A stretch of DNA of 64,000 nucleotides from Acuticoccus mangrovi. GTDB taxonomy: Bacteria > Pseudomonadota > Alphaproteobacteria > Rhizobiales > Amorphaceae. Of this stretch, positions 39,436-50,978 are shown piece by piece. Made by a program: the position numbers and the translations under genes. Location: the NCBI RefSeq assembly GCF_016411865.1, contig NZ_JAEKJA010000006.1:1-64000 (forward strand). Reading direction: 5' to 3'. The stretch's first letter is position 1. Every line of letters begins with the position of its first letter. Under the pieces are notes generated by a model. That model was not told the origin of the DNA. It did not search any database and saw only the letters and a program-made list of their open reading frames with translations.

Positions 39436-39454
39436 GAATGGTGCCCAGGGGCGG
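39436..39454 (+). repeat. attL core
   Basis: GAATGGTGCCCAGGGGCGG here is identical to 50,900-50,918, where it forms the 3' end of tRNA-Phe. After the core the two copies differ (A versus G), which sets the core length. Host sequence lies to its left. Confidence 0.85.
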
Positions 39455-39492
39455 AATGCAGAAACCGCCCAAAAACAATAGCATAACGGAAA

Positions 39493-39548
39493 GTGGGACA
39501 GTCAAAAGTCCCATGAACTTTCAGGGTTTTTCGGGAAAAGTGTCCCAC
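39493..39548. other. Putative integrase arm-type sites, left end
   Basis: GTGGGACA at 39,493-39,500 and its complement in AAAAGTGTCCCAC at 39,536-39,548 lie just inside attL in opposite orientation. The same pair is found just inside attR (50,816-50,857). Repeats near both ends of an integrated element, outside genes, are typical integrase or excisionase arm sites. Confidence 0.6.
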
Positions 39549-39670
39549 CGAAAAGCCCGCTGATCCACCGAATTCCCATCTGAAACGAGAACCGCCGCCC
39601 AGGGTGATGACCTGGACGGCGGAAGGCGAACTTGTGCTCTCTCGCCAGCCATCGAAGGAGAACCAAAACC

Positions 39671-41968
39671 ATGACCGGCGCGGTATTAAAATACCACAAC
39701 AAACCTAGAAAGGGCAACCCTGCCGTCTCCCTGGGCGACCTGAAGGAAGCCCCGATCTGGGTGGCGTGGAGGGAGAACAGCAACGGGCGAAAACTGCCCG
39801 TGAACCCCTCCACGGGGTGCGCGGCGAAGTCCGATAGCCCCGACACCTGGGGCAGCCGGAAAGCCGCGCACAAGCGCGCCCAGAATGCCCGCTGGCAGCG
39901 CGAGAAGGTGGGAAAGGTCGGCGTGGGCGTCATGTTCGCGCCCGTTCCCCAAGCGCGCGGCTGGCGGCTGTGTGGCGTCGATCTGGACGGGTGCCTGGAC
40001 GGCGACAAGCTGGCCCCCTGGGCGTCCGCCGTGGTGGACCGCTTCAACAGCTACACCGAACGGTCCCCGAGCGGCACGGGTGCCCACATCCTGTTCCTTT
40101 GTCGGGAGTCGGACATGGCCGCTTTGCGGGACGCGGGGCTGGTCACGCCGAAAGGCGGTGCCGAATTCTCCCTGGGCGGTCATACTGAAATCGCCCTGTT
40201 CCTGGGTGGACGATACTTCACCGTCACCGAAGACCAGCTTGGCGACGGGTCGACCATCCGCACCGTGAAGCGCGCCGATCTGGAATGGCTGGTCCGCGAG
40301 CACGGTCCCGCGTTCAAGCGGGCCGCCGGGGAGAGCGGGCCGAAGGGTGGCGACGAGTCCGGGTCTGGCATCGCCTTCAAGTTCCTCTGTGACCGATTCC
40401 GCGAGGGGAAGGGCGAAGAGGAAGTCCGAGACGACATCGCCCAGGATGACGGCGACGCGGGCGACTGGTGGCACCGCGCGGGAGACCGGCAACAAGACCG
40501 TGCCGTCCACAACGCAAGCGCGCGGATTACCGGCGAAGGGGCGAAAGTCATCGCGCTCTTCGACGACCTGGACGACCCCGACGTGGAAGCCGCCTACATC
40601 CTGGGCGAAGACCCGCCGGGGACGGACGACGACTTCGAACTGGACGAAGACGGCGTGATCCGGGCCTTCACGGCGGCCTACAAGGATGAACTGCGGTTCG
40701 ACCATGCGGCGGGAAGCTGGTTCCGCTTCGACGGCAATTCCTGGCGGCGGGAGGAAACCAAGCTCGCCCACCACTACGCCCGCCGGCTTGCGACCGACAT
40801 GGCGGACAACGATCCGAAGGCGAAGGCGCTTCGGAAGGTCCACACCTGGGAAGCTATCGAGCGCGCCGCGCGGACGGTTCGGGAATTTGCCATCGCCGGG
40901 GGCTGGGATCCGGACCCGTGGCTTCTGGGGACCCCCAGGGGGGCGGTGGACCTTCGCACGGGCGTTCTTCGCCCCGGTGATCCGGCGGACCACATCGCCC
41001 GCCTGACCGCCGCCGCGCCCATCCCTCGGGAGCGGTTCGACCCGTCGCGGGACTGTCCCCGGTGGCTGGCCTTCCTCGACGAAGCCCTGGGCGGCGACGC
41101 GGACGCCATCCGGTTCTTCCGCACGTGGTGCGGCTATGGGCTGACCGGCGAGACCAAGGAACACGCGCTGGTCTTCGTCTACGGGCGCGGCGGTTCCGGG
41201 AAATCGACGGCCATCAACACGGCGGCGGACATCCTGGGCGACTATTCCATCACCGTGGACACGTCGACTCTGACCGCCCAGAAGCATGAAGCCCACAAAC
41301 AGGAAATAGCCCGCCTGGACGGCGCACGGTTCGCCTGGGCGTCGGAGACCGAAAAGGGGCGGGCCTGGGCCGAGAGCCGTATCAAGTCGCTCACGGGCGG
41401 CGACAAGATCACGGCGAACTTCATGCGCCAGAACAGCTTCGAATTCGTCCCGCAACTGAAGCTCACCATCGTCGGGAACAACGCACCGACCCTGAGCAAC
41501 GTGGACGAAGCCATGCGGCGGCGTTTCATCATCCTGCCGTTCGATCATCCCCCGGCGACGAAGGACGCCGATCTGCCGGAGAAGCTGAAGGTGGAATGGT
41601 CCGGGATTCTGTCGTGGATGATCGAAGGGTGTCTGGACTGGCAAGCGTACGGTCTCATTCGCCCGGAAGTCGCGGTGCGCGCAACGGAAGCCTACTTCGA
41701 CGAACAGGACATCTTCGCCCAATGGATTGAAGAGTGCTGCGAGACCGGGGAGCACATCGCGGACACGACGGCAAATCTCTGGAAATCGTGGAGTGACTAC
41801 GCTTTCGACAACAGGGAACACCCCGGAACGAAGGTGCGGACTTTCCCGGAGACGCTTTCTCAGCGTGGATTTGACGCGATCAAGGACACTCTGGGAATTC
41901 GGGGGCGTGGGTATCGCGGACTCCGGGTGCAGAAGGAGGACTTCACCGATGACTTCGAAATCCTCTAA
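39671..41968 (+). CDS. P4-type primase-helicase (prim-pol plus SF3/D5 helicase)
   Basis: This 765-residue replication protein of the satellite has three parts. The N-terminal third is an archaeo-eukaryotic primase-like domain (APIWVAWRENSNGRKLPVNP, GWRLCGVDLDGCLDG, SYTERSPSGTGAHILF). The middle is a D5-N-like linker (LRFDHAAGSWFRFDGNSWRRE, LGTPRGAVDLRTG). The C-terminal helicase has Walker A GRGGSGKST at residues 505-513, Walker B-like region FAWASETEKG and the SF3 sensor block LKLTIVGNNAPTL. GAAGGAGA precedes the ATG. It should open and prime at an origin; the repeat array directly downstream is a candidate. Confidence 0.93.
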   Translation: MTGAVLKYHNKPRKGNPAVSLGDLKEAPIWVAWRENSNGRKLPVNPSTGCAAKSDSPDTWGSRKAAHKRAQNARWQREKVGKVGVGVMFAPVPQARGWRLCGVDLDGCLDGDKLAPWASAVVDRFNSYTERSPSGTGAHILFLCRESDMAALRDAGLVTPKGGAEFSLGGHTEIALFLGGRYFTVTEDQLGDGSTIRTVKRADLEWLVREHGPAFKRAAGESGPKGGDESGSGIAFKFLCDRFREGKGEEEVRDDIAQDDGDAGDWWHRAGDRQQDRAVHNASARITGEGAKVIALFDDLDDPDVEAAYILGEDPPGTDDDFELDEDGVIRAFTAAYKDELRFDHAAGSWFRFDGNSWRREETKLAHHYARRLATDMADNDPKAKALRKVHTWEAIERAARTVREFAIAGGWDPDPWLLGTPRGAVDLRTGVLRPGDPADHIARLTAAAPIPRERFDPSRDCPRWLAFLDEALGGDADAIRFFRTWCGYGLTGETKEHALVFVYGRGGSGKSTAINTAADILGDYSITVDTSTLTAQKHEAHKQEIARLDGARFAWASETEKGRAWAESRIKSLTGGDKITANFMRQNSFEFVPQLKLTIVGNNAPTLSNVDEAMRRRFIILPFDHPPATKDADLPEKLKVEWSGILSWMIEGCLDWQAYGLIRPEVAVRATEAYFDEQDIFAQWIEECCETGEHIADTTANLWKSWSDYAFDNREHPGTKVRTFPETLSQRGFDAIKDTLGIRGRGYRGLRVQKEDFTDDFEIL

Positions 41969-41988
41969 CCCTTTGAAATCCCTTGATC

Positions 41989-42092
41989 TGCGACATGTGC
42001 GACATGTCGTCCAATTATCGCCTTACGCGCGCGAAAACACCAAAAATCCCGGCACTAGGGGCTCATATGGAACACATGTCGCACTTGTCGCA
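41989..42092. other. Inverted iteron-like array, candidate replication origin
   Basis: TGCGACATGTGCGACATGT (41,989-42,007), itself two copies of TGCGACATG, faces an 18-of-19 inverted copy at 42,074-42,092 across 66 bases that are relatively AT-rich. It lies 20 bases after the primase-helicase stop, in the longest gene-free stretch inside the element. P4-type replication proteins act at iterons, so this is the best origin candidate. Confidence 0.5.
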
Positions 42093-42152
42093 CGGGTCCC
42101 TCCTGGGGGCGGCGCGTCGCGGGGGACGCGGAGCCCCGGCTTTTCACGCACT

Positions 42153-42212
42153 CCAGAATTTCTGGAATCGGGAATCCAATTCCCGCGTTCCGGCTCACTC
42201 TGGAATTTCCAG
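42153..42212. promoter_or_regulatory. Three palindromes before the terminase genes
   Basis: CCAGAATTTCTGG (42,153-42,165), CGGGAATCCAATTCCCG (42,169-42,185) and CTGGAATTTCCAG (42,200-42,212) are perfect or near-perfect palindromes packed within 60 bp, and end 23 bp before the small-terminase start. The spacing between centres is roughly two to three helical turns. They look like operators for a regulator of the packaging and head genes. Confidence 0.5.
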
Positions 42213-42235
42213 AAATCCTAGAAAACGGGGCGCGC

Positions 42236-42739
42236 ATGACTGCCTATGACGCCGAAATCGAAGCCGTCCTGGGCGGTGGCACTGAAGCCCCTTCCGGCGA
42301 GACCGTGACCGCCGCCGAACTGTCGGAATGGCTGAACCTGTCCACCGCCCGGATTCATGCGCTGGCCCGCGAAGGCGTCATGCCCCGGACGGACGGACGC
42401 TTCGATCTGCAACTCACCATCCGCGCCTATGTGGAGCACCTGCGCGCGGGGCAGCGGGGGCGGCAATTCACGGACCCGGACCTGAACGCCGAAAAGCTGC
42501 GGCTGGCCCGCGCCAATGCCGAGAAGATCGAACTGGCAAATGCCAAGACCCGCGCGGCGCTGGTCCCCGTGGCCGAAGTCGAGTCCGCCTGGGCATCGGT
42601 CCTTCGGGACGTGCGCGCCGCCATGCTCGCAATTCCCGCCCGCGTTCAACAGCGGCTTGGGCATCTGACCGCCCATGACGTGCAGATGATCGACCGCGAA
42701 GTCCGCGACGCGCTCGAAGAGGCAAGCCATGACGACTGA
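42236..42739 (+). CDS. Terminase small subunit, Nu1-like
   Basis: This 167-residue DNA-recognition subunit of the packaging motor has an N-terminal winged helix (VTAAELSEWLNLSTARIHALAREGVMPRTDGRFDL in outline) like lambda Nu1. A long helical oligomerisation region (NAEKLRLARANAEKIELANAKTRAALVP) follows. It overlaps the large-terminase start by 11 bases. In satellites with their own terminase, this subunit ensures that satellite DNA rather than helper DNA enters the small heads. Confidence 0.85.
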   Translation: MTAYDAEIEAVLGGGTEAPSGETVTAAELSEWLNLSTARIHALAREGVMPRTDGRFDLQLTIRAYVEHLRAGQRGRQFTDPDLNAEKLRLARANAEKIELANAKTRAALVPVAEVESAWASVLRDVRAAMLAIPARVQQRLGHLTAHDVQMIDREVRDALEEASHDD

Positions 42740-44498
42740 CATCCTGACCGCCACCCGCGCCCGTGCTCTGGCCGCCCTGAAGCCCCCTCCGCGCCTGTCC
42801 CTGGGGGATTGGATGGAAGCCCACATGCGGCTTCCCGAAGGCGTCTCTGCCCTCCCTGGGCGCGTCACCCTCTGGCCCTATCAACGCGGCATTGCCCAGG
42901 CAGTCAGCGACCCGCTGGTCGAGCGTGTGACGCTGGTGAAGCCCGTCCGCGTCGGGTTTACGACCTTGCTCACCGGGGCGCTGGCGTCCTACGTCGCCAA
43001 TGAGCCGTCCCCGATCCTGGCCCTTCTGCCCACGGAAGCGGACGCCCGAGACTATGTCGTCTCCGATCTGGAACCGATCTTCGACGCGACGCCCAGCTTG
43101 CGGGGGCTTATCTCTGCCGACGCGGACGAAGGCGGGCGGTCCACGCTTCTGTCGCGCCGCTTCCCCGGCGGGTCCCTGAAGATCGTCGCGGCCAAAAGCC
43201 CCCGGAACCTGCGCCGCCACAACGTCCGAGTACTGCTGATCGACGAAGCGGACGCCATGGAACCGTCCGCCGAAGGCAGCCCGATCACCTTGGCCGAACG
43301 GCGGACCCTCAGCTTCGCCAATCGCAAGATCATCCTGGGCAGCACCCCGACGCTTCTGGACACGTCGAACGTGCTGCGGTCCTACGCCCAATCGGACCAG
43401 CGGGTCTTCGAAGTCCCGTGCCCGGATTGTGGGGCCATGGCCGAAATCCAGTGGCGACATATCGAATGGCAGCCTGACCAGCCCCAGACGGCGGCTTTCC
43501 GCTGCCCCCATTGCGAGTCCCTGATCGACGAACGCCACAAGGCGGGCATGGTGGAGGCGGGGGCGTGGCGGGCCATGCGGCCCGAAATCGAAGGCCATGC
43601 GGGCTTCCGGCTGAACGCCCTTGTTTCGACGCTGGCAAACGCTTCCTGGGGCAAGCTTGCGGCGGAATTCATCGCGGCCAAGGGGCACCCGGACCAGCTT
43701 CAAACCTTCGTCAACACGATCCTGGCCGAAGGCTGGCGAGAGGCGGTGGAAGAGATCGACGAAACCGCCCTGGCATCGCGGCGGGAACGGTTCGGCCTGG
43801 ACGCGCTGCCCCGTGACGTGCTGGTCCTGACCGCCGGAGTCGATGTGCAAGGGGACCGGCTGGAAATCGTGATCCTGGGGCACGGGAAGACCGAATTCTT
43901 CGTCCTGGGGCAGCATGTCATCTGGGGCAGCCCCCATGAAGATCACAACTGGGCGGAACTGGACGACTTCCTTCGGGGGCAATGGCCGCACCCCGGCGGC
44001 GGGACCATGCGCTTGGACGCCGTGGCGGTGGACGCGGGCGACGGGGGGACCATGGACGCGGTTCTGGCCTTCTGCCGTCCCCGCTTTGCCCGCCGGATCG
44101 TCGCCATCAAGGGGGCACCGGGGGCGCGGCCCGGTATCAAGGCTAGCGAGACGCGCGGGTCCCGCCTGTTCATCCTGGGCGTGGACGGGCTGAAGGCCAC
44201 GCTTGCCAGCCATCTGTCGCGCGGGCGGACGGTGAGATTCAGCGACACCCTGGAAGACAGGTTCTTTGAAGAACTGGCGGCGGAACGGCGGCTGGTCCGA
44301 TACAAGCGGGGGGCACCTGTCCGGGTCTGGGAACGGATTGCGGGGCGGCGGGCCGAGTCCCTGGATTGCATGGTGTATGCCCTAGCCGTCCGCCCGCTTG
44401 TCGGGGTTGACCTGGACAGACGGGAAGCGGAAATTTCGACGAAAGCCGCCCCCGCGCGAACTCCGCCTGTCGTCAGGTCCGCTTGGCTTGATCGTTGA
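42729..44498 (+). CDS. Terminase large subunit, GpA family
   Basis: This 589-residue ATPase and nuclease of the packaging motor shows the GpA-family N-terminus LSLGDWMEAHMRLPEGVSALPG and WPYQRGIAQAVSDP. The ATP-binding loop is KPVRVGFTTLLTGAL (the family form, without a classical GxGKS), with Walker B VLLIDEADAME. Zinc-ligand-like cysteines follow in VPCPDCGA and FRCPHCES. The C-terminal nuclease region has LTAGVDVQGDRLEIVI and AVAVDAGDGGTMDA. It starts inside the small-subunit gene. Confidence 0.92.
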   Translation: MTTDILTATRARALAALKPPPRLSLGDWMEAHMRLPEGVSALPGRVTLWPYQRGIAQAVSDPLVERVTLVKPVRVGFTTLLTGALASYVANEPSPILALLPTEADARDYVVSDLEPIFDATPSLRGLISADADEGGRSTLLSRRFPGGSLKIVAAKSPRNLRRHNVRVLLIDEADAMEPSAEGSPITLAERRTLSFANRKIILGSTPTLLDTSNVLRSYAQSDQRVFEVPCPDCGAMAEIQWRHIEWQPDQPQTAAFRCPHCESLIDERHKAGMVEAGAWRAMRPEIEGHAGFRLNALVSTLANASWGKLAAEFIAAKGHPDQLQTFVNTILAEGWREAVEEIDETALASRRERFGLDALPRDVLVLTAGVDVQGDRLEIVILGHGKTEFFVLGQHVIWGSPHEDHNWAELDDFLRGQWPHPGGGTMRLDAVAVDAGDGGTMDAVLAFCRPRFARRIVAIKGAPGARPGIKASETRGSRLFILGVDGLKATLASHLSRGRTVRFSDTLEDRFFEELAAERRLVRYKRGAPVRVWERIAGRRAESLDCMVYALAVRPLVGVDLDRREAEISTKAAPARTPPVVRSAWLDR

Positions 44499-44772
44499 TG
44501 TTCAAGAGCGACCCGACGCTGGCAAACTTGGAAATGTCTTCGCGCGCGAACCGTCGCTTGTTGTCCCCACGGGGGCCTTTCTGTCGCAGGGCGGCGCGGA
44601 CGGACGTGATCGCCTTGTGCAGATAGTCCCGTTCGGTCTGGACCAGCCCCATGGCGTTGGCGTCGATCTGGATCGCGGCCAATTCACCTTCGGCCCGCTG
44701 CGCGAAAGCCGCGCCGCGAAGAACGTCGCTCAGGCGGTCTGCAATCTGCTGGTGTTCTTCACGGGTGGCCAT
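44473..44772 (-). CDS. Hypothetical protein, element cargo or regulator
   Basis: This 99-residue minus-strand protein is predicted to be largely helical (REEHQQIADRLSDVLRGAAF, VQTERDYLHKAITSVRAALRQ). It has a basic tail and no recognised motif. Its 3' end overlaps the large-terminase 3' end by 26 bp. The two genes here are the only ones in the element that run against the head genes, the usual place for accessory or interference functions in satellites. It is a real gene on balance; its function is unknown. Confidence 0.55.
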   Translation of the reverse strand: MATREEHQQIADRLSDVLRGAAFAQRAEGELAAIQIDANAMGLVQTERDYLHKAITSVRAALRQKGPRGDNKRRFAREDISKFASVGSLLNINDQAKRT

Positions 44773-44796
44773 GCCACCTGAATAGCAGGCTGACGG

Positions 44797-45012
44797 CTAA
44801 TCCGTCCACTTCTTGGGCGCGGCCTTGTCCACATAGCGTTCAACGTCCCCGATCTGGTGAGCCCACCAGACGAGTCTACCGTCTTCGGTGACGACGCGGT
44901 ATCTGGGCACCCCACGCGCGGGATTGGGGCACGATCGGAAGAACAGGCCGCACCGGTGGACCTTGTAGTAGACCCGCGCCTTCGCTCTTTGATGCTTTGA
45001 TCTGTCCGGCAT
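44797..45012 (-). CDS. Small basic hypothetical protein
   Basis: This 71-residue protein (MPDRSKHQRAKARVYYKVHR ... GDVERYVDKAAPKKWTD) has two cysteines (HRCGLFFRSCPN) and aromatic-rich strands. The frame is open upstream to a GTG at 45,105, so the start is uncertain and the ribosome site is weak for both. It lies 24 bases upstream of the 99-residue gene on the same strand. I do not recognise the family. It could be an inhibitor of helper-phage packaging or a defence cargo, but nothing in the sequence proves it. Confidence 0.45.
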   Translation of the reverse strand: MPDRSKHQRAKARVYYKVHRCGLFFRSCPNPARGVPRYRVVTEDGRLVWWAHQIGDVERYVDKAAPKKWTD

Positions 45013-45115
45013 CCTCGAATGGCCGGGGGCGGCTCTCGCAAACCGCCCCCGACTCCCCTTCAACGTCTGAGAAAAGCGACGCGCGTCCAACGCGCCGTGC
45101 CCCACTTCTACATGA

Positions 45116-45157
45116 GGAGATAAAACCCTGCAAATTTACTTGCAGATTTTAATCTCC
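45116..45157. promoter_or_regulatory. Nested palindrome between minus-strand accessory genes and plus-strand head genes
   Basis: GGAGAT (45,116-45,121) pairs with ATCTCC (45,152-45,157), and inside it CTGCAA (45,128-45,133) pairs with TTGCAG (45,140-45,145). The stretch is AT-rich compared with its surroundings and lies at the divergence point of two transcription units. It is well placed for a shared operator or divergent promoter. Confidence 0.5.
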
Positions 45158-45202
45158 TAATGTATGTTTTGGGCCGACCGAACCGCCGCGAAGGGACCCA
45201 AC

Positions 45203-45748
45203 ATGGCTGAAACACTAACGCTTCGAGCGATCGCCGACCATCTGGCGGACCAAGATGGAATCGCCGACCTGCAAGAGCGGGAAGCCCGCTATCAGCGCCT
45301 TCGGGCCATCGTGCAACAGGGCATGGTCACGTCTGACGTGGAAGTATCGAAAGGCAAGACCGCCACGTTTGGCGCGGTCAAGATCGCCCAGCTTCGTGTC
45401 CTGCAAGCCCTTATGGAAGCGGGCTTCAAGGGGCCGGTCCTATGGAAATTCAACGCCCATCTCAACAAGACACCGATCACGGGGGAGGCTGGCCACCAGC
45501 CGGGGACGATGATCGCCAAAGCCGTTGCCGGAACTGCGGCGGGCGAAGACTGGCAACTGGACATTCGGATCACGCGCCGCCGGGACGCCGACGAACCGGA
45601 ATATCTGGGCGGCCTTCGCCGCGCGGATGAACCCCGAAACCCGGTGAGCGACCAAATCCTCATGGCGGGCCGCGTCCTCTATGCCGCCGTGTCTTTGCCC
45701 GTGTCGGACTTGATCTGGCCCGTCCTGTCCGTTCTGGAGGCCGAATAG
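45203..45748 (+). CDS. Unknown protein upstream of the portal, possible winged-helix domain
   Basis: This 181-residue protein starts at ATG 45,203 behind GAAGGGAC. The N-terminal half (LTLRAIADHLADQDGIADLQ; KTATFGAVKIAQLRVLQALMEAGF) resembles a MerR-like winged helix only loosely. The C-terminal half is strand-rich without a motif I know. It ends two bases before the portal start, so it is in the head operon. It could be a scaffold, a packaging factor or a regulator, and no choice among these is possible by eye. Confidence 0.75.
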   Translation: MAETLTLRAIADHLADQDGIADLQEREARYQRLRAIVQQGMVTSDVEVSKGKTATFGAVKIAQLRVLQALMEAGFKGPVLWKFNAHLNKTPITGEAGHQPGTMIAKAVAGTAAGEDWQLDIRITRRRDADEPEYLGGLRRADEPRNPVSDQILMAGRVLYAAVSLPVSDLIWPVLSVLEAE

Positions 45749-45750
45749 TC

Positions 45751-47139
45751 ATGGCCTTCCGCCTTCCTCGACTCCCGAAACTGTTTCGGACAACTGAAAC
45801 CCCGGCGCGTCGCATGATCGACGCCGCCGCTGGCGGGCGTCGGGGCGGCGGCTTCGGCACCTTCGGGCCGATCAATCCCGAAGTGGCGGCGGGGGCGACG
45901 CTCACGCGGTCCCGCGCCCGTTACCTCGCCGCCAACAATCCCTTCCTGTCCAATGGCGTGGACAACTGGTCCGCCGCGCTGGTGGGGGCTGGCATCCGTC
46001 CGACGCCCCGCGCTGAAGATGCGGACACCCGCCGCGCCGCAAGTCGTGCTTTCGAGACCTGGGCGGACGACGCCGACGCGGCGGGGCGGACGGACTTCTG
46101 GGGGCTGCAACGGGACATCGCCCGTCACCTGATCGTGGACGGCGAAGCCCTGGTCATTATTCACGACGACGGGGACGGGCTGCGGCTTCAGACCGTCGCG
46201 CCCGAACAACTGGACGAAGCCAAGACGGCGGAACTTGGTGGCGGGCGGATGATCGTGAGCGGCGTGGAATTCGACGCCCAGGGCCGCCGTGTCGCCTATT
46301 GGCTTCTGCCCCACCGTCCGCATTCCACCTTCACCGATTACGCCCCGTCGATCCGCTTCGACGCCGCCGACGTGCTGCACATCATGCGCCCTCTGGGCGC
46401 GGGGCAGGTGCGCGGCTTGTCCTGGCTGGCCCCGGCGGTCCTGTCCGCTTCCGAACTGGACCAGTTGATGGACGCCCTGCTGGTGGGTGCGAAGACCAGC
46501 GCCATGTTCGCGGGCTTCCTCACCGATCTAAACGCCACGGGCGGGCTGCCCTTCGACGGCGACCAAGCCGGAAGCATCATGGACACGGGCCTGGAACCCG
46601 GAACGCTGAAGGTCCTGCCCGCCGGGATCGACGTGAAATTCTCTGCCCCCGACGCGGCCAAGGACTCGCCTGCCTTCCTGCGGATGAACCTGCAAGCCTT
46701 GGCTGCCGCCCTGGGGCTGCCCGAACACCTTCTGTCCGGGGACCTGACAAACGCCAACTATTCCAGCCTTCGGGCGGGCCTGCTGCCATTCCGGGCGCGG
46801 GTGGAACAGACGCAATACGGAACCCTCGTCCCGCAATTCCTGCGGCCTGTCTGGCGGCGGTGGATTGTTGCCGAAGTCCTGTCCGGGCGCTTGGACCTGA
46901 CCCCCGATCTGGCGGCGGAATGGATCATGCCCCGCCCGATGCAGGTGGACCCCCAGAAGGACTTGGCGGCCATGAAGGAAGCCTTGGCCCTGGGGCTGAC
47001 CAGCCGAACGAAGGCGGTCAACGAATTGGGCTGGAACGCCGACGATCTGGACGAGGAAATCGCCGCTGACCATGCCCGCGAACGCGACCTGGGGCTGACC
47101 TTCAGCCCCAGAACCCCGGAGTCCCCCAATGACGACTGA
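45751..47139 (+). CDS. Phage portal protein, lambda GpB family
   Basis: This 462-residue subunit of the dodecameric ring is where DNA enters the head. Lambda-type portal marks are RARYLAANNPFLSNGVDNWSAALVGAGI, WGLQRDIARHLIVDGEALVII, the loop DVLHIMRPLGAGQVRGLSWLAPAVL and LPEHLLSGDLTNANYSSLRAGLLPF. Full family length. GGAGG precedes the ATG. It overlaps the capsid-fusion gene by 11 bp. Confidence 0.93.
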   Translation: MAFRLPRLPKLFRTTETPARRMIDAAAGGRRGGGFGTFGPINPEVAAGATLTRSRARYLAANNPFLSNGVDNWSAALVGAGIRPTPRAEDADTRRAASRAFETWADDADAAGRTDFWGLQRDIARHLIVDGEALVIIHDDGDGLRLQTVAPEQLDEAKTAELGGGRMIVSGVEFDAQGRRVAYWLLPHRPHSTFTDYAPSIRFDAADVLHIMRPLGAGQVRGLSWLAPAVLSASELDQLMDALLVGAKTSAMFAGFLTDLNATGGLPFDGDQAGSIMDTGLEPGTLKVLPAGIDVKFSAPDAAKDSPAFLRMNLQALAAALGLPEHLLSGDLTNANYSSLRAGLLPFRARVEQTQYGTLVPQFLRPVWRRWIVAEVLSGRLDLTPDLAAEWIMPRPMQVDPQKDLAAMKEALALGLTSRTKAVNELGWNADDLDEEIAADHARERDLGLTFSPRTPESPNDD

Positions 47140-48916
47140 CGCCTTGACGCGGGCCGCCCAGACGCGCCCGAACAGCTTCGATCCGGCAACGCGAACGGTG
47201 TCCGCCGTCATCGCGTCGCCGACTCCCGTGCCCCGACGCGACTCGCGGGGGCCTTTCCTTGAAGTGTTGATGGCTGCCACCCTGGACCTGTCCGCCGCTG
47301 ACCTTCCGGTCCTCGACTCTCACCGGACTGCCAGTGTCCGGGACCAGTTGGGCCGGGTCCGGTCCATCGCCGTGGAAGGCGACTCTGTCGTCGCCGTCCT
47401 TTGGCTGTCGTCCGCCGAAGATGTTGCGCCCGTGGTGCAGCGGATCGCGGACGGCACGGTGACGGGGGTGTCCATCGGATACCGCGTCGCCGGGTGGACC
47501 GAGAAACAGACTCAGGCGGGGCGGGTGAAGAGCCCGACCGCATGGACGATTACCGAAGTCACCCTGACCAGCAATCCGGCGGACCCGTCCGCTCGTCTGA
47601 GGCATCAAGAGGAGTCCCCCATGCCCGAAGCTACCGAAACCGTTTTGCGGGATGTGGCGGAACAGACCCGCCGCCACGACATCCGCGCCCTGGTCCGAAC
47701 CGCTGGCCTGGACGCCCAGGTGGCGGACGACCTGATCGACGCGGGCGCGGACATGACCCGCGCCAAGGCGGAAATCGTCGACGCCGTGCAGGACCGCCGC
47801 CGCGCGGCCCCGATCATCCGGTCCCATGCCCCCGCGAACGACGATCCGGCGACGATCATCCGCCGCCAGTCCGACGCGCTGGCCTTCCGCATGGGCGGCG
47901 GCGGGGAACCCGCCAAAGACGTGCGTCCCTTCCTGAACCTCAGCCTTCGGGACATGGCCGTCGACTCCCTGACCCGTGCGGGGGTGTCCACGCGCGGCAT
48001 GTCGGCGGACGAAGTGTTCACGCGGGCCGGTGAGCACACCACCAGCGACTTCGCCCTGACCGTAAGCAATGCCATGGGCAAGGTGGCGCTGGACACCTAC
48101 AAGGCCGCCGAGTCCCCGCTCAAGACGCTTTGCCGCCAGCGGACGCTTCCCAACTTCAAGGACTCCACGTCCATCCGCCTGGGCGAAATGGGCCGCCTGG
48201 AAGAACTCGCCGAGTCGGGTGAGATCACCCACACCAGCCGCGCCGAAAGCGGCGAGACCATGCGCCTGAAGACCTTCGCTCGGGGCGTCACGGTTTCCCG
48301 GAAGCTGATGATCGACGACGATCTGGGCCTTCTGGGCGACATGACGGCGGCCCTGGGCGAAGCGGCGGCCCAGACCGAAGCGGACATCCTAGTCACGCTG
48401 CTGACCGGCAATCCGAACCTCAGCGACGGGACCCCGGTCTTCGACGCCACCCGTGGCAACCTGGGCAATGCTGGCGGCGGTTCCGCCGGGGCCATCGGTT
48501 CGGCGGGCGTGGACGTGTTCACGGACGCGCGGCAAGCCATGCGGACGGTCAAGGGCATGGACGGCAAGACCATCGTCGGCGCGGCCCCGCGCTTCATGAT
48601 CGTCGGGCCGGAAATCGAGACCCTGGCCGAAAAAATCCTGGCGGAAACCTACCCGACGAAATCGGACGAAGTGAACGTGGCCGCTTCGAAGATGACGCTT
48701 CTGGTGGAACCCCGCCTGGAAGGGGATGCGGTCTACATCTTCGCCGATCCGGCGCGGTTGGCGGCCATGCAATACGCCTATCTGTCGTCCGCCCAGGGCA
48801 TCCAGATTCAGCGGACGGAAGCCTGGGACACCCTGGGCATGAAGTATCGCGCCTTCCTGGACTTCGGCGCGGGCTGGCTCGACTGGCGCGGCGCGTATCT
48901 CCACGAAGGAAGCTGA
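47129..48916 (+). CDS. Prohead protease / major capsid protein fusion
   Basis: This single 595-residue chain contains a prohead serine protease and the capsid subunit. The N-terminal 170 residues hold the protease with candidate catalytic H65 (VLDSHRTAS) and S115 (VTGVSIGYRV). A helical, charged middle (about 170-260; ALVRTAGLDAQVADDLIDAG) may be the scaffold segment. From about 265 on it matches capsid subunits of the Mu-gpT-like group (PFLNLSLRDMAVDSLTRAG, FARGVTVSRKLMIDDDLG, SKMTLLVEPRLEGDAVYIFADP). Self-cleavage would release the mature capsid protein. Such fusions are known in some phages. Confidence 0.92.
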   Translation: MTTDALTRAAQTRPNSFDPATRTVSAVIASPTPVPRRDSRGPFLEVLMAATLDLSAADLPVLDSHRTASVRDQLGRVRSIAVEGDSVVAVLWLSSAEDVAPVVQRIADGTVTGVSIGYRVAGWTEKQTQAGRVKSPTAWTITEVTLTSNPADPSARLRHQEESPMPEATETVLRDVAEQTRRHDIRALVRTAGLDAQVADDLIDAGADMTRAKAEIVDAVQDRRRAAPIIRSHAPANDDPATIIRRQSDALAFRMGGGGEPAKDVRPFLNLSLRDMAVDSLTRAGVSTRGMSADEVFTRAGEHTTSDFALTVSNAMGKVALDTYKAAESPLKTLCRQRTLPNFKDSTSIRLGEMGRLEELAESGEITHTSRAESGETMRLKTFARGVTVSRKLMIDDDLGLLGDMTAALGEAAAQTEADILVTLLTGNPNLSDGTPVFDATRGNLGNAGGGSAGAIGSAGVDVFTDARQAMRTVKGMDGKTIVGAAPRFMIVGPEIETLAEKILAETYPTKSDEVNVAASKMTLLVEPRLEGDAVYIFADPARLAAMQYAYLSSAQGIQIQRTEAWDTLGMKYRAFLDFGAGWLDWRGAYLHEGS

Positions 48917-48918
48917 CC

Positions 48919-49149
48919 GTGGCCGTGTTGACGACCTCTGAACGGCTGGAAGAGGCGCAAGAGGCGCTTCACCAGCTTCTGACGGGGACGCAAGCCGTCG
49001 CTGTTACCGACCAGAACGGCGAGCGGGTGGAGTATCGCCCCACGAACCGCGCCGCGCTGGAACGGTATGTGGCGGACCTCGAAGCCCAACTGGCGGGGGC
49101 GCACAAGCCCCCGCACACCATCCGATTCCAGACCTCGAAAGGACTCTGA
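48919..49149 (+). CDS. gpW-like head-tail connector protein
   Basis: This 76-residue protein closely follows the lambda gpW pattern: ERLEEAQEALHQLLTGTQAVAV, then a short strand NGERVEYRPTN and ALERYVADLEAQLAG. gpW closes the portal after packaging and provides the platform for the tail. The start is GTG, two bases after the capsid-fusion stop. Its presence in an element without tails fits a head that receives a tail from a helper phage. Confidence 0.85.
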   Translation: MAVLTTSERLEEAQEALHQLLTGTQAVAVTDQNGERVEYRPTNRAALERYVADLEAQLAGAHKPPHTIRFQTSKGL

Positions 49150-49150
49150 A

Positions 49151-49480
49151 ATGAAGAACTTCGTTCAAGCCGGTGAGAATATCACCGTGACCGCCGCCGC
49201 CGCTGCCACCAGCGGGGATAGCGTGAAAATCGGCAGCCTGTTCGGCATCGCGGCGGGTGACGCCGAAACCGGGGACCCGCTGGTACTGGTGACGGCGGGC
49301 ATCTTCGACATGCCCAAGGTGGCCGCCGACGACATCACCCTGGGCGCTGCCGTCTACTGGCGCTCCAGCGACGGGCTGGTGACGACGACGGCGAGCGGGA
49401 ACACGAAAGTCGGCGTGGCCGTCACCGCCGCCGGCAATGGCGCGGCGAGCGTCCGCGTCCGCCTGAACGGCGCGTTCTGA
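49151..49480 (+). CDS. DUF2190 family capsid decoration protein
   Basis: This 109-residue strand-rich protein of the DUF2190/RecA-associated-like capsid cement group shows KNFVQAGENITVTAAAAATSGD, SLFGIAAGDAETGDPLVLVTAGIF, TLGAAVYWRSSDGLVTT and KVGVAVTAAGNGAASVRVRLNG. Family members sit beside capsid genes and bind the outer surface as cement. It starts two bases after the connector gene, in the same operon. Confidence 0.85.
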   Translation: MKNFVQAGENITVTAAAAATSGDSVKIGSLFGIAAGDAETGDPLVLVTAGIFDMPKVAADDITLGAAVYWRSSDGLVTTTASGNTKVGVAVTAAGNGAASVRVRLNGAF

Positions 49481-49490
49481 CGCGTCCCCC

Positions 49491-49745
49491 TTGGGCGTGG
49501 CCGATCATACCCAAAACCGGGAACTGGCAGTCCTACCGCCCACGAAGCGGGGGCTGTCGCGTGTCCTGGCGGCCGGTTACATCGACGTGAGCCCGACCAA
49601 ATTCGATCAAATGGTGGCTGATGGGCGAATGCCCAAGCCGAAGAGGATCGATGGACGGAAAGTCTGGGACGTGCGCGCTCTGGACCGATGCTTCGAAGCC
49701 TTGCCCAGCGACGGGGACGTGAACCACAATCCCTGGGACGAATGA
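49491..49745 (+). CDS. AlpA-like helix-turn-helix protein (excisionase/activator)
   Basis: This 84-residue protein (78-82 with other starts) has an excisionase-type winged helix: VLAAGYIDVSPTKFDQMVADGRMPKPKRIDGRKVWDVRALDRCFEAL. This follows the AlpA pattern, helix-turn-helix followed by GRFPKPxRxGxRxxxW. Start codons TTG 49,491 and GTG 49,497 are both possible. Its stop overlaps the integrase start as ATGA. AlpA proteins activate P4 and PICI excision, so it may be the switch of this element. Confidence 0.8.
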   Translation: MGVADHTQNRELAVLPPTKRGLSRVLAAGYIDVSPTKFDQMVADGRMPKPKRIDGRKVWDVRALDRCFEALPSDGDVNHNPWDE

Positions 49746-50812
49746 CGATGACCAGGGACGCCATGAAGATACGCTTGAAATACGTTGTGGAGGACGTGGA
49801 CCGCCACGGCAATGTCCGCCTCTATTTCCGCCGAAATGGCAAGAAAATCAGGCTTCCCAGCCCTATAGGCTCCCCGGAATTTCTTGCCGCCTACAAGACC
49901 GCATTTGCGGGCGAATCGAAGGCCAAGTCCGCGCCCAAGGTGGGGCAGGTCATTCCCGGTTCGGTGCGGTTCCTTTACGCGGAATACTACAAATCGGCCA
50001 TGTTTCGGGAACTCGACCCCCGGACTCAGAAGGTCCGCCGGGGCATTCTGGACCGCTTCTGTCAGCACAAGAACGACGGGGACAAGCCCTTCGCTTTGCT
50101 CCAGCCGAAGCACATCCGGGCGCGGCGCGACGAAATGATGGACCGCCCCGAAGCCGCGAACGGCATGGTGAAGGCGCTTCGCCAACTCTACAAATTCGCC
50201 GTCCGCTATGATCTTCACGACCGGAACCCGGCAACCGAAATCGAATATCTCAGCCCAAAGAACGCCGACGGATTCCATTCTTGGACCTTGGCCGAAATCG
50301 AGAAATTCGAAGAAACGCACCCGGTGGGGACCATGGCGCGGCTCGCGCTCGCTCTGGCGCTCTACACGGGCCAGCGGCGTTCCGATCTAGTGCAGCTTGG
50401 CAAACAGCACGTCCGCGACGGGTGGCTGGTCTTCACCCAACACAAGAACCGGAACCGCTCGCCTGTCCGTCAGGAAATTCCCATTGTGCAGGACCTTCAG
50501 CGGATCATCGACGCCAGCCCTACCGGGGACCTGACGTTCCTGGTCACGGCGTTCAATCGGCCCTTCACGTCGAACGGTTTCGGCAACCGCTTCCGCAAAT
50601 GGTGCGACGAAGCGGGCTTGCCCCAATGCTCAGTCCACGGACTCCGCAAGGCCGCCGCCGCGCGGCTCGCAGAAATGGGCTGCACCGAATTCGAGATCAT
50701 GGCGATAACGGGTCATCGGACTTCGAAGGAAGTCACCCGATACACTCGCGCCGCCAGCCAGAAGACCCGCGCGGAAAGCGCCTTGAAGCGCATGACGGCG
50801 GAACGGAAGTAG
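49742..50812 (+). CDS. int: Tyrosine integrase of the element
   Basis: This 356-residue site-specific recombinase has an N-terminal arm-binding domain (about 10-75), a core-binding domain (about 75-170; LYAEYYKSAMFREL) and a C-terminal catalytic domain. Catalytic residues are R212 (TGQRRSDL), H299 and R302 (HGLRKAAAARL), H325 (TGHRTSKE) and nucleophile Y334 (VTRYTRAAS). It ends 87 bp before attR at tRNA-Phe, the normal position for an integrase of a tRNA-targeting element. It is co-translated with the AlpA-like gene. Confidence 0.95.
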   Translation: MTMTRDAMKIRLKYVVEDVDRHGNVRLYFRRNGKKIRLPSPIGSPEFLAAYKTAFAGESKAKSAPKVGQVIPGSVRFLYAEYYKSAMFRELDPRTQKVRRGILDRFCQHKNDGDKPFALLQPKHIRARRDEMMDRPEAANGMVKALRQLYKFAVRYDLHDRNPATEIEYLSPKNADGFHSWTLAEIEKFEETHPVGTMARLALALALYTGQRRSDLVQLGKQHVRDGWLVFTQHKNRNRSPVRQEIPIVQDLQRIIDASPTGDLTFLVTAFNRPFTSNGFGNRFRKWCDEAGLPQCSVHGLRKAAAARLAEMGCTEFEIMAITGHRTSKEVTRYTRAASQKTRAESALKRMTAERK

Positions 50813-50815
50813 GAC

Positions 50816-50857
50816 AAAAGTGTCCCACTTTTCGAAGTGTTGGCAGACGGTGGGACA
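50816..50857. other. Putative integrase arm-type sites, right end
   Basis: AAAAGTGTCCCAC (50,816-50,828) and GTGGGACA (50,850-50,857) mirror the left-end pair at 39,493-39,548. The 13-bp AAAAGTGTCCCAC is identical at both ends. They lie between the integrase stop and attR. Confidence 0.6.
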
Positions 50858-50899
50858 AAACCGCCACCTAAGCCCCTGAAAACACTGAGGTAGGAAAAT

Positions 50900-50918
50900 G
50901 AATGGTGCCCAGGGGCGG
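50900..50918 (+). repeat. attR core within tRNA-Phe 3' end
   Basis: This is the second copy of the 19-bp core found at 39,436. Positions 50,903-50,918 are the last 16 nucleotides of tRNA-Phe including CCA, so insertion leaves the tRNA intact. Confidence 0.85.
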
Positions 50919-50978
50919 GATCGAACCACCGACACTGCGATTTTCAGTCGCATGCTCTACCAACTGAGCTACCTGGGC
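50903..50978 (-). tRNA. tRNA-Phe (GAA)
   Basis: A full 76-nt cloverleaf with encoded CCA: acceptor GCCCAGG/CCTGGGC, D arm GCTCAGTTGGTAGAGC, anticodon stem TGCGA/TCGCA with loop CTGAAAA (anticodon GAA), and T arm GGTGG-TTCGATC-CCGCC. Its 3' end is the attachment site of the satellite. It lies downstream of the antiporter on the same strand. Confidence 0.97.

Follow-up and report, generated by a model that had tools for sequence, protein, structure and literature searches.

An element integrated at tRNA-Phe

The window analysed here, a stretch of 64,000 nucleotides (contig C56) within the 5.46-Mb genome of Acuticoccus mangrovi, carries an element of 11,464 bp that is very probably an intact integrated phage satellite, which would build its own heads, excise, replicate and pack itself, and take its tails from a helper phage, where the helper and the particle are what we infer. 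The sequence itself establishes the integration at tRNA-Phe, the intactness of the genes, a tail-less gene set that relatives conserve, two regions of cis repeats and a tight unit size. An exact direct repeat of 19 nt delimits the unit, with the right copy serving as the 3' end of the tRNA-Phe gene, which is intact (Table 1), and in this respect the repeat and the tRNA gene prediction bear out an earlier interpretation made from the letters of this stretch (hereafter the sequence-only reading), which had placed 19-bp direct repeats at tRNA-Phe around some 11.5 kb. The alphaproteobacterial host that it proposed agrees with the 16S rRNA gene, which is 96.5% identical to that of Acuticoccus sp. 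I52.16.1 (Hyphomicrobiales) in a search confined to the plasmid collection.

Genes of the element

Pfam profiles were applied to all 12 proteins of the window element and PHROGs profiles to 10 of them, the 102-aa open reading frame (ORF) and the integrase being left out. Matches were obtained for each member of the gene set named in the sequence-only reading, that is the primase-helicase, the small and large terminase subunits (TerS and TerL), portal, protease/capsid fusion, gpW, cement, AlpA-like protein and integrase; these nine genes and a further gene of 194 aa all point one way and each consist of an uninterrupted frame that has a start and ends in its only stop, so that the recognised genes are indeed intact. 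Its statement that tail and lysis genes are absent likewise holds in these searches, where no such family was matched. The profile searches found no HNH endonuclease among the 12 proteins and no recognisable Stl, an AlpA-like protein (by PHROG only) and a MerR-like gene being present. In the fusion protein the protease part is of the S78 type and the Pfam matches are PF25209, PF10124, PF04586 and two weak others, with no match at E up to 0.1 to PF05065, the published capsid yardstick for capsid-forming phage-inducible chromosomal islands (cf-PICIs).

Table 1. Features of the window element (aa, amino acids; positions in the 64-kb window)
Feature	Position	Strand	Basis and remarks
attL	39436..39454		19-nt duplicate of tRNA-Phe 3' end; exact match to 50900-50918
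Inverted pair of GTGGGACA, left end, putative integrase/AlpA arm sites	39493..39548		motif count; function putative
Primase-helicase (D5_N, DUF5906), 765 aa	39671..41968	+	PF08706 6.9e-20, PF19263 2.5e-11, phrog_6088 3.9e-105
Inverted iterons (TGCGACATG type), putative replication origin	41989..42092		25-nt arms 88% complementary; function putative
Three TTCCAGAAWTTCTGGAA-like repeats before terS, putative TerS-binding (cosB-like) site	42149..42223		function putative
Terminase small subunit TerS (Nu1 type)	42236..42739	+	phrog_57 7.7e-29; PF07471 3.8e-6, below its cut-off
Terminase large subunit TerL, gpA (ATPase and nuclease)	42729..44498	+	PF05876 1.4e-83, PF20454 7.8e-81
99-aa ORF, cargo slot, may not be a gene	44473..44772	-	unmatched in five close relatives examined
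102-aa ORF, cargo slot	44797..45105	-	kept in close relatives
MerR-like winged-helix gene, 194 aa, putative switch/repressor	45164..45748	+	predicted fold
Portal, lambda family	45751..47139	+	PF05136 2.5e-81
Prohead protease/major capsid fusion	47129..48916	+	phrog_4523 2.4e-140; PF25209, PF04586
gpW head-completion protein	48919..49149	+	PF02831 6.7e-14
Cement/head decoration protein	49151..49480	+	PF09956 1.2e-27, phrog_122
AlpA-like regulator/excisionase	49491..49745	+	phrog_25900 4e-15, phrog_66 0.002; no Pfam match
Tyrosine integrase	49742..50812	+	PF00589 8.7e-18; start codon overlaps alpA stop
Inverted pair of GTGGGACA, right end, putative	50821..50857		motif count; function putative
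attR	50900..50918		exact match to 39436-39454
tRNA-Phe (gaa), integration site	50903..50978	-	tRNA gene prediction

For every gene matched in five close relatives, the ratio of nonsynonymous to synonymous substitution (dN/dS) lies at 0.03-0.50; these relatives count effectively as four, since L003 and L036 gave identical numbers and look like one element. The 102-aa ORF is 66-70% identical in L003, L029, L035 and L036 (dN/dS 0.27-0.41) and has no match in L038, the 194-aa gene is matched in L038 only, and the 99-aa ORF in none of the five.

The 194-aa gene was missed in the sequence-only reading, whose claim that no lysogeny repressor is present proves too strong, as the product folds like a MerR-type regulator. 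It has no Pfam or PHROG match. The best fold in the PDB for its AlphaFold2 model (18 rows, mean predicted local distance difference test 86.4) is CvkR (7xn2), a MerR-type regulator, with E 7.3e-5, template-modelling scores of 0.46/0.58 and a root-mean-square deviation of 6.0; CvkR is the only fold match at E up to 0.001, and further MerR proteins follow at E > 0.2. From this model the gene is taken as a MerR-like winged-helix gene and a putative switch or repressor. In 17 other elements genes of 144-216 aa, chosen by position, stand at the same place, and at 13-26% identity to the window protein their homology to it is likely.

The gap from terL to portal, regulator included, measures 0.76-2.46 kb, and its other genes vary between elements. 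Among ten cargo proteins scanned first, seven match Pfam at E up to 0.01, namely MrcB_N with HNH, MUG113/T5orf172, Abi_alpha, DUF3800, SEC-C, DUF4062 and HEPN, where the DUF3800 and HNH scores lie just below their cut-offs; three further slot proteins, as well as an ORF between terS and terL of L018, gave no match. This suggests that the slot between terL and the regulator holds exchangeable and sometimes defence-like cargo, where "defence-like" is a suggestion because PADLOC matches are weak and occur in 4 of the 10 proteins, some Pfam scores fall under cut-off and four proteins are unmatched.

A family of related islands

When GTDB genomes were scanned once with TerL, 29 loci came up, whose named hosts are all alphaproteobacteria, including by record titles roseobacters, rhizobia, sphingomonads and others (three of the 29 are titled only "bacterium" or "Proteobacteria bacterium"). 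Carriers that can be grown in culture are, for instance, Rhodovulum bhavnagarense DSM 24766 and Sinirhodobacter ferrireducens, with a TerL 94% identical. From IMG/VR, 80 of 83 records were kept by TerL and the best 80 of at least 556 by capsid alignment. Thirty loci next to a tRNA gene were examined, counting that of the window; 24 of them carry an attachment (att) repeat of 14-52 nt, and these 24 elements measure 11,278-13,179 bp, with a mean of 12,240 and a standard deviation of 501. Every one of the 24 has terS followed in turn by terL, portal, capsid and cement, all on a single strand, and together they use ten kinds of tRNA (Ser, Phe, Lys, Gly, Val, Glu, Met, Arg, Asn and Trp). As what would refute it, the sequence-only reading had named relatives with the same head genes followed by tail and lysis genes, with this copy simply deleted. 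The comparison, run here, returned tail-less relatives in many hosts at ten tRNA kinds with tight size, and therefore this copy is not a lone deletion; a prophage shortened by a deletion of its own is ruled out by the conserved tail-less family.

Elements that lack a primase or integrase of the window type carry other primases or integrases. For example in L003, which lies at tRNA-Ser, TerS, TerL, portal, capsid, gpW and cement are 94-97% identical to those of the window and the integrase is 41% identical; in L035 and L029, both at tRNA-Phe, the integrase is 99% and 94% identical. Judged by these identities, module exchange is apparent among the nearest relatives. In L019 the TerL, portal and capsid frames are split.

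Some further arrangements were seen in passing. L083, L105, L173 and L196 show an alternative order with the head genes first and the terminase after them; a window-like primase lies between the two in L083 and L196, and by eye L083, L173 and L196 have an apparent different integrase at one end. In L146 and L181 the left module (primase, terS, terL) is inverted relative to the head genes. The 2.2-Mb replicon pBEN of Paracoccus versutus holds an element of the window kind (L210:13472-22195) that adjoins tRNA-Glu, at a place with no annotated feature in a record whose gene table has three features, and two such elements, in records of 12.2 and 13.0 kb (L133 and L145), bear a single IMG genome id, 2698536701.

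Search for tail and lysis genes in the relatives

From 92 regions, some of them whole contigs with flanks, 321 non-core ORFs of at least 90 aa that passed a score of G+C at the third position were grouped into 183 clusters, and the 120 longest representatives (at least 136 aa) were compared with PHROGs. Among the 25 families listed of 102 matched, one is a tail family, a baseplate hub with one member. The full tables, which cover 30 of the 120 representatives, hold this match, in L092, and one match to a lysis-family amidase in L050; the latter (L050:35-802) lies beyond tRNA-Arg (L050:1025-1101), outside the tRNA end of the element. When the 321 ORFs were compared by BLAST with 14 tailed loci, matches fell at the terminase small subunit, the primase or one 25-residue stretch, and none at a recognisable tail gene. 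In the 24 att-bounded elements there is little room between the core genes, and, L092 apart, no tail family stands among the PHROG families listed.

In a class-wide draw of 190 genomes, seven (the own genome included) hold a relative of the capsid with an E value of 1e-40 or lower; the eight capsid loci other than the two of the own genome comprise two satellite-like, five tailed-prophage-like and one ambiguous locus.

Capsid and terminase trees

In the final capsid tree one branch parts all 46 satellite-labelled rows from all 11 tailed rows; its support is 100/99, and it recurs in every one of 200 bootstrap trees. For this tree the 70 satellite rows were reduced to 44, L214 and L215 were added, L204 with its very long branch was dropped, and L086 (a 5.7-kb fragment) and L218 were put in no group after the first tree had been seen; with L086 counted as a satellite, it stands beside the tailed L104 and a second label change is needed. 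The first capsid tree places 69 of 70 satellite-labelled rows together (Shimodaira-Hasegawa-like approximate likelihood ratio 97), and a single clade of all 70 is not rejected by the approximately unbiased test (p 0.566). "Satellite" in the first capsid tree and in the TerL tree means any locus with the needed genes that was not marked tailed, short fragments included and near-copies thinned. Tailed labels come from profiles (L119, L120, L122), annotation (L202-L204, L206, L207, L209), taxonomy (L205, L208), or nothing beyond gene order, record length or long ORFs resembling a tape measure (L030, L104, L110, L111, L216, L217, L219-L221), and the fused ORF of L104 was trimmed to its last 700 residues.

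TerL was rejected as a satellite marker, as L104 and L119 nest among satellites; judging from the trees, TerL is exchanged more freely than the capsid. The TerL proteins of L119, which is a prophage that has a tail sheath, and of L104, which comes from a viral record of 36.5 kb, are 55% and 57% identical to that of the window; the capsids of both lie outside the satellite clade, which reads as terminase exchange. Against 50,697 phage records the window proteins are, among the top matches listed, 33-37% (TerL), 38-42% (portal) and 25-30% (capsid) identical.

Repeats with putative cis-acting roles

The word GTGGGACA occurs four times in the window, two inverted copies at each end of the element and none elsewhere. 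In a shuffle control 3 of 100 shuffles reached four copies anywhere, and the weight lies on the placement of the copies; in the 20 kb around a second island of the same genome (L117, see below) there are three, all inside its 200-bp ends. The iterons lie behind the primase gene, a layout that recurs in L003 and L035, and in L029 with an altered iteron word. Two of the three TTCCAGAAWTTCTGGAA-like repeats before terS fit the pattern at no more than three mismatches, where 0.03 would be expected in the window; similar triplets are found in L003, L035 and L029, in the last with a different spacing. In the 450 bp before terS, 8-mers are repeated in excess in the window element (p=0.005), and at p<0.01 in 14 of 24 elements, compared with 0 of 24 terL-coding controls. 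The origins of Staphylococcus aureus pathogenicity islands (SaPIs) and lambda cosB are the analogues for these two regions, and by that analogy the iterons would be the replication origin and the palindromes before terS the TerS-binding site.

Weighing the satellite reading against its alternatives

Several observations weigh against an intact, tail-borrowing satellite. The copy in the window is known from its sequence alone, and its induction, excision, particle and helper are what we infer; no empty site was found in any of the seven other genomes of the genus examined, all of which retain tRNA-Phe with the antiporter side, the left flank and its kinase not adjoining tRNA-Phe there. Six of the 30 tRNA-adjacent loci carry no repeat of 13 nt or more, and by BLAST the window primase is matched in 7 and the integrase in 13 of the 24 att-bounded elements, the window counted. 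L092, a 9.1-kb contig labelled satellite, opens with its baseplate-hub-like ORF (L092:7-948) directly before terL, perhaps as a chimera or as a true mosaic, and further single tail matches may be hidden among the PHROG families outside the 25 of 102 listed. The first capsid tree needs two label changes for its 70 satellite-labelled rows, the fragment L086 joining the tailed L104, and the TerL tree has five, so that it gives no separation of satellite from tailed. Finally, gpW is the sole recognised connector of the window element.

The alternative that survives best, though still unlikely, is an autonomous small virus that borrows no tail and travels as a bare head, in a vesicle, or with a tail made from unrecognised small genes. 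It draws on the putative status of the helper, and on the circle L101 of about 9.7 kb with no recognised integrase and L099 of like layout (see below); gpW and lambda-type portals serve tailed virions, and the short and variable gap from terL to portal, regulator included, leaves little space for a tape measure or baseplate. Even less probable is a remnant, left by a prophage after loss of the tail and lysis genes. There are indeed tailed relatives whose head genes are of the same kinds, L119 and the record behind L104 having TerL proteins at the 55% and 57% identity given above; but the tail-less set recurs at the same size at ten tRNA kinds, the genes are intact and under purifying selection, and the capsid clade leaves out the tailed phages sampled, and with this the remnant reading is largely refuted already. 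A gene transfer agent (GTA) is a host-bound locus without integrase and with tail genes. That the element is such an agent, or another host-owned capsid locus, is hardly credible, even though alphaproteobacteria are known as GTA carriers in a passage of PMC8224337, as the element has an integrase and att sites, a primase of its own and repeats like those of an origin, no tail genes were matched in it, and the relatives lie at differing tRNAs.

If the element is a satellite as we hold, its cycle may be pictured as follows. The MerR-like gene would keep it silent until a helper phage relieves the silencing; the AlpA-like protein and the integrase would then act at att and the GTGGGACA arm sites to excise it, and the primase-helicase would replicate it, starting at the iterons that follow the primase gene. 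A small head would be assembled from protease/capsid, portal and cement, TerS would bind the palindromes before terS and TerL fill the head with one unit of about 11.5 kb, after which gpW would close the head and the helper provide outer connector, tail and lysis. The capsid gene of the tailed phages RcOceanus and RcKemmy is followed by a hypothetical gene and a gene for head-tail attachment, that of the window element by gpW, cement and then alpA, so that the helper would supply the outer connector as well.

Circular forms, a second island and a possible helper

A metagenome record of 12,347 bp, L053, runs from terS to cement, then through an integrase-like gene on the other strand and a stretch like a tRNA-Ser end to the primase and the iterons. 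At this junction 21 nt have the pattern of an alphaproteobacterial tRNA-Ser 3' end (TGGCGGA...GGGATTCG), common to ten such ends though not identical with them; the record contains no tRNA gene. Because its ends do not repeat, L053 would be a cut-open circle or a concatemer, which falls short of proof of a closed circle; at one end lies a stretch that we take to be a random-PCR tag. A presumed tag from random-PCR amplification stands at one contig end of L212 and would point to a virome sample that had been amplified. In L101 a terminal repeat of 127 nt gives a circle of about 9.7 kb in which neither integrase nor cement was recognised, and L099 (about 9.7-10 kb) has a like layout.

The own genome holds a second island at tRNA-Asn, of 10.7 kb (L117:5675-16379, contig C1), with primase pieces split over two frames, strong inverted iterons, an XRE gene, a 180-aa gene before the portal, portal, capsid, a gpW-like gene, cement, an AlpA-like gene and integrase; no TerS or TerL was recognised in it. 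The idea that it borrows the terminase of the window element was rejected, as L117 has no TTCCAGAAWTTCTGGAA-like match; other terminases are possible. A prophage at the start of contig C65 (L122, C65:1-20000) has a gpA terminase, a gpT-type capsid, a major tail protein and a tape measure, and is a possible helper for the window element. A search of the own genome for PhageMin_Tail gave no match, the tape measure on C65 being of another type.

Comparison with known systems

The cf-PICIs are described as having their own capsid, protease, portal, connector, TerS, TerL and HNH endonuclease and depending on helper tails (PMC10690885, in part), with an average of 14 kb (PMC10803314, in part). The window element is alike in its own capsid, protease, portal, connector, TerS and TerL, in having integrase and att sites as an integrated island, and in head and packaging genes without tail or lysis genes. 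Integrase, AlpA and primase are moreover usual genes of phage-inducible chromosomal islands. It differs in its PF25209/gpT-like fusion, gpA/Nu1 terminase and lambda portal, and in lacking HNH and a recognised Stl. The sequence-only reading had seen in it the make-up of a cf-PICI, and of this the way of working stands and the membership does not: because the capsid is not PF05065, no HNH gene is present, and portal and terminase are of lambda/gpA type, we do not file it as a cf-PICI. Judged by these capsid and HNH tests, it works like one yet is not a member, where PF05065 as the family by which cf-PICI capsids are searched is taken from the description in part of PMC13230959. Three capsid radiations are mentioned for cf-PICIs in a passage of PMC11389934, and some cf-PICIs carry putative tape-measure genes according to a passage of PMC12987554, whereas none is recognised in the window element.

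The satellite-plasmids PISP and cf-PISP of Vibrio resemble it in having no tail genes and their own capsid, PISP also in a MerR-like regulator (PMC13230959, in part). They are episomes, whereas the window element is integrated with an integrase; L099 and L101, which have no recognised integrase, resemble their life style. The Streptomyces phage satellites MulchRoom and MiniFlayer have their own capsid and packaging genes, with a helper tail suggested for MulchRoom, but differ in showing no obvious replicase, in their direct terminal repeats and in their virulent helpers (PMC10690885, in part). Tailed phages of Rhodobacter capsulatus, RcOceanus and RcKemmy, share a gpA-like terminase, a gpW-like gene, a portal and a protease/capsid fusion, but have a full tail module after the head genes and a capsid identity of 27-30%. 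Thus the fusion, which the sequence-only reading thought might mark a separate family, fails as such a mark, being annotated in these tailed phages too.

In the extracts at hand, cf-PICIs are called widely distributed across Bacteria (PMC10690885), no alphaproteobacteria stand among the cf-PICI hosts named (PMC10803314), and no element of the window kind appears in the prophages of Rhodobacteraceae (PMC8224337) or of Hyphomicrobiales (PMC11080155). No description of such satellites in alphaproteobacteria was found in the literature searched, a limited library and listings that leave the founding cf-PICI papers outside, which is no proof of their novelty.

Implications

On balance we lean to the view that these islands are a separate alphaproteobacterial radiation of tail-stealing satellites of single origin, with a head module of lambda/gpA type in place of the HK97-type one of cf-PICIs, so that tail-stealing would have arisen again independently; it would include circles in which no integrase is recognised and, in L117, a capsid island with no recognised terminase, as well as a fixed slot for exchangeable, partly defence-like cargo. 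If this is true, tail-stealing satellites evolved more than once and are spread through the alphaproteobacteria. Defence-like genes could travel by way of such islands, and 12-kb units like these may have been classed as short or incomplete prophages. With their fixed size and complete head module, packaging of one unit and borrowing of tails would be directly testable in culturable strains.

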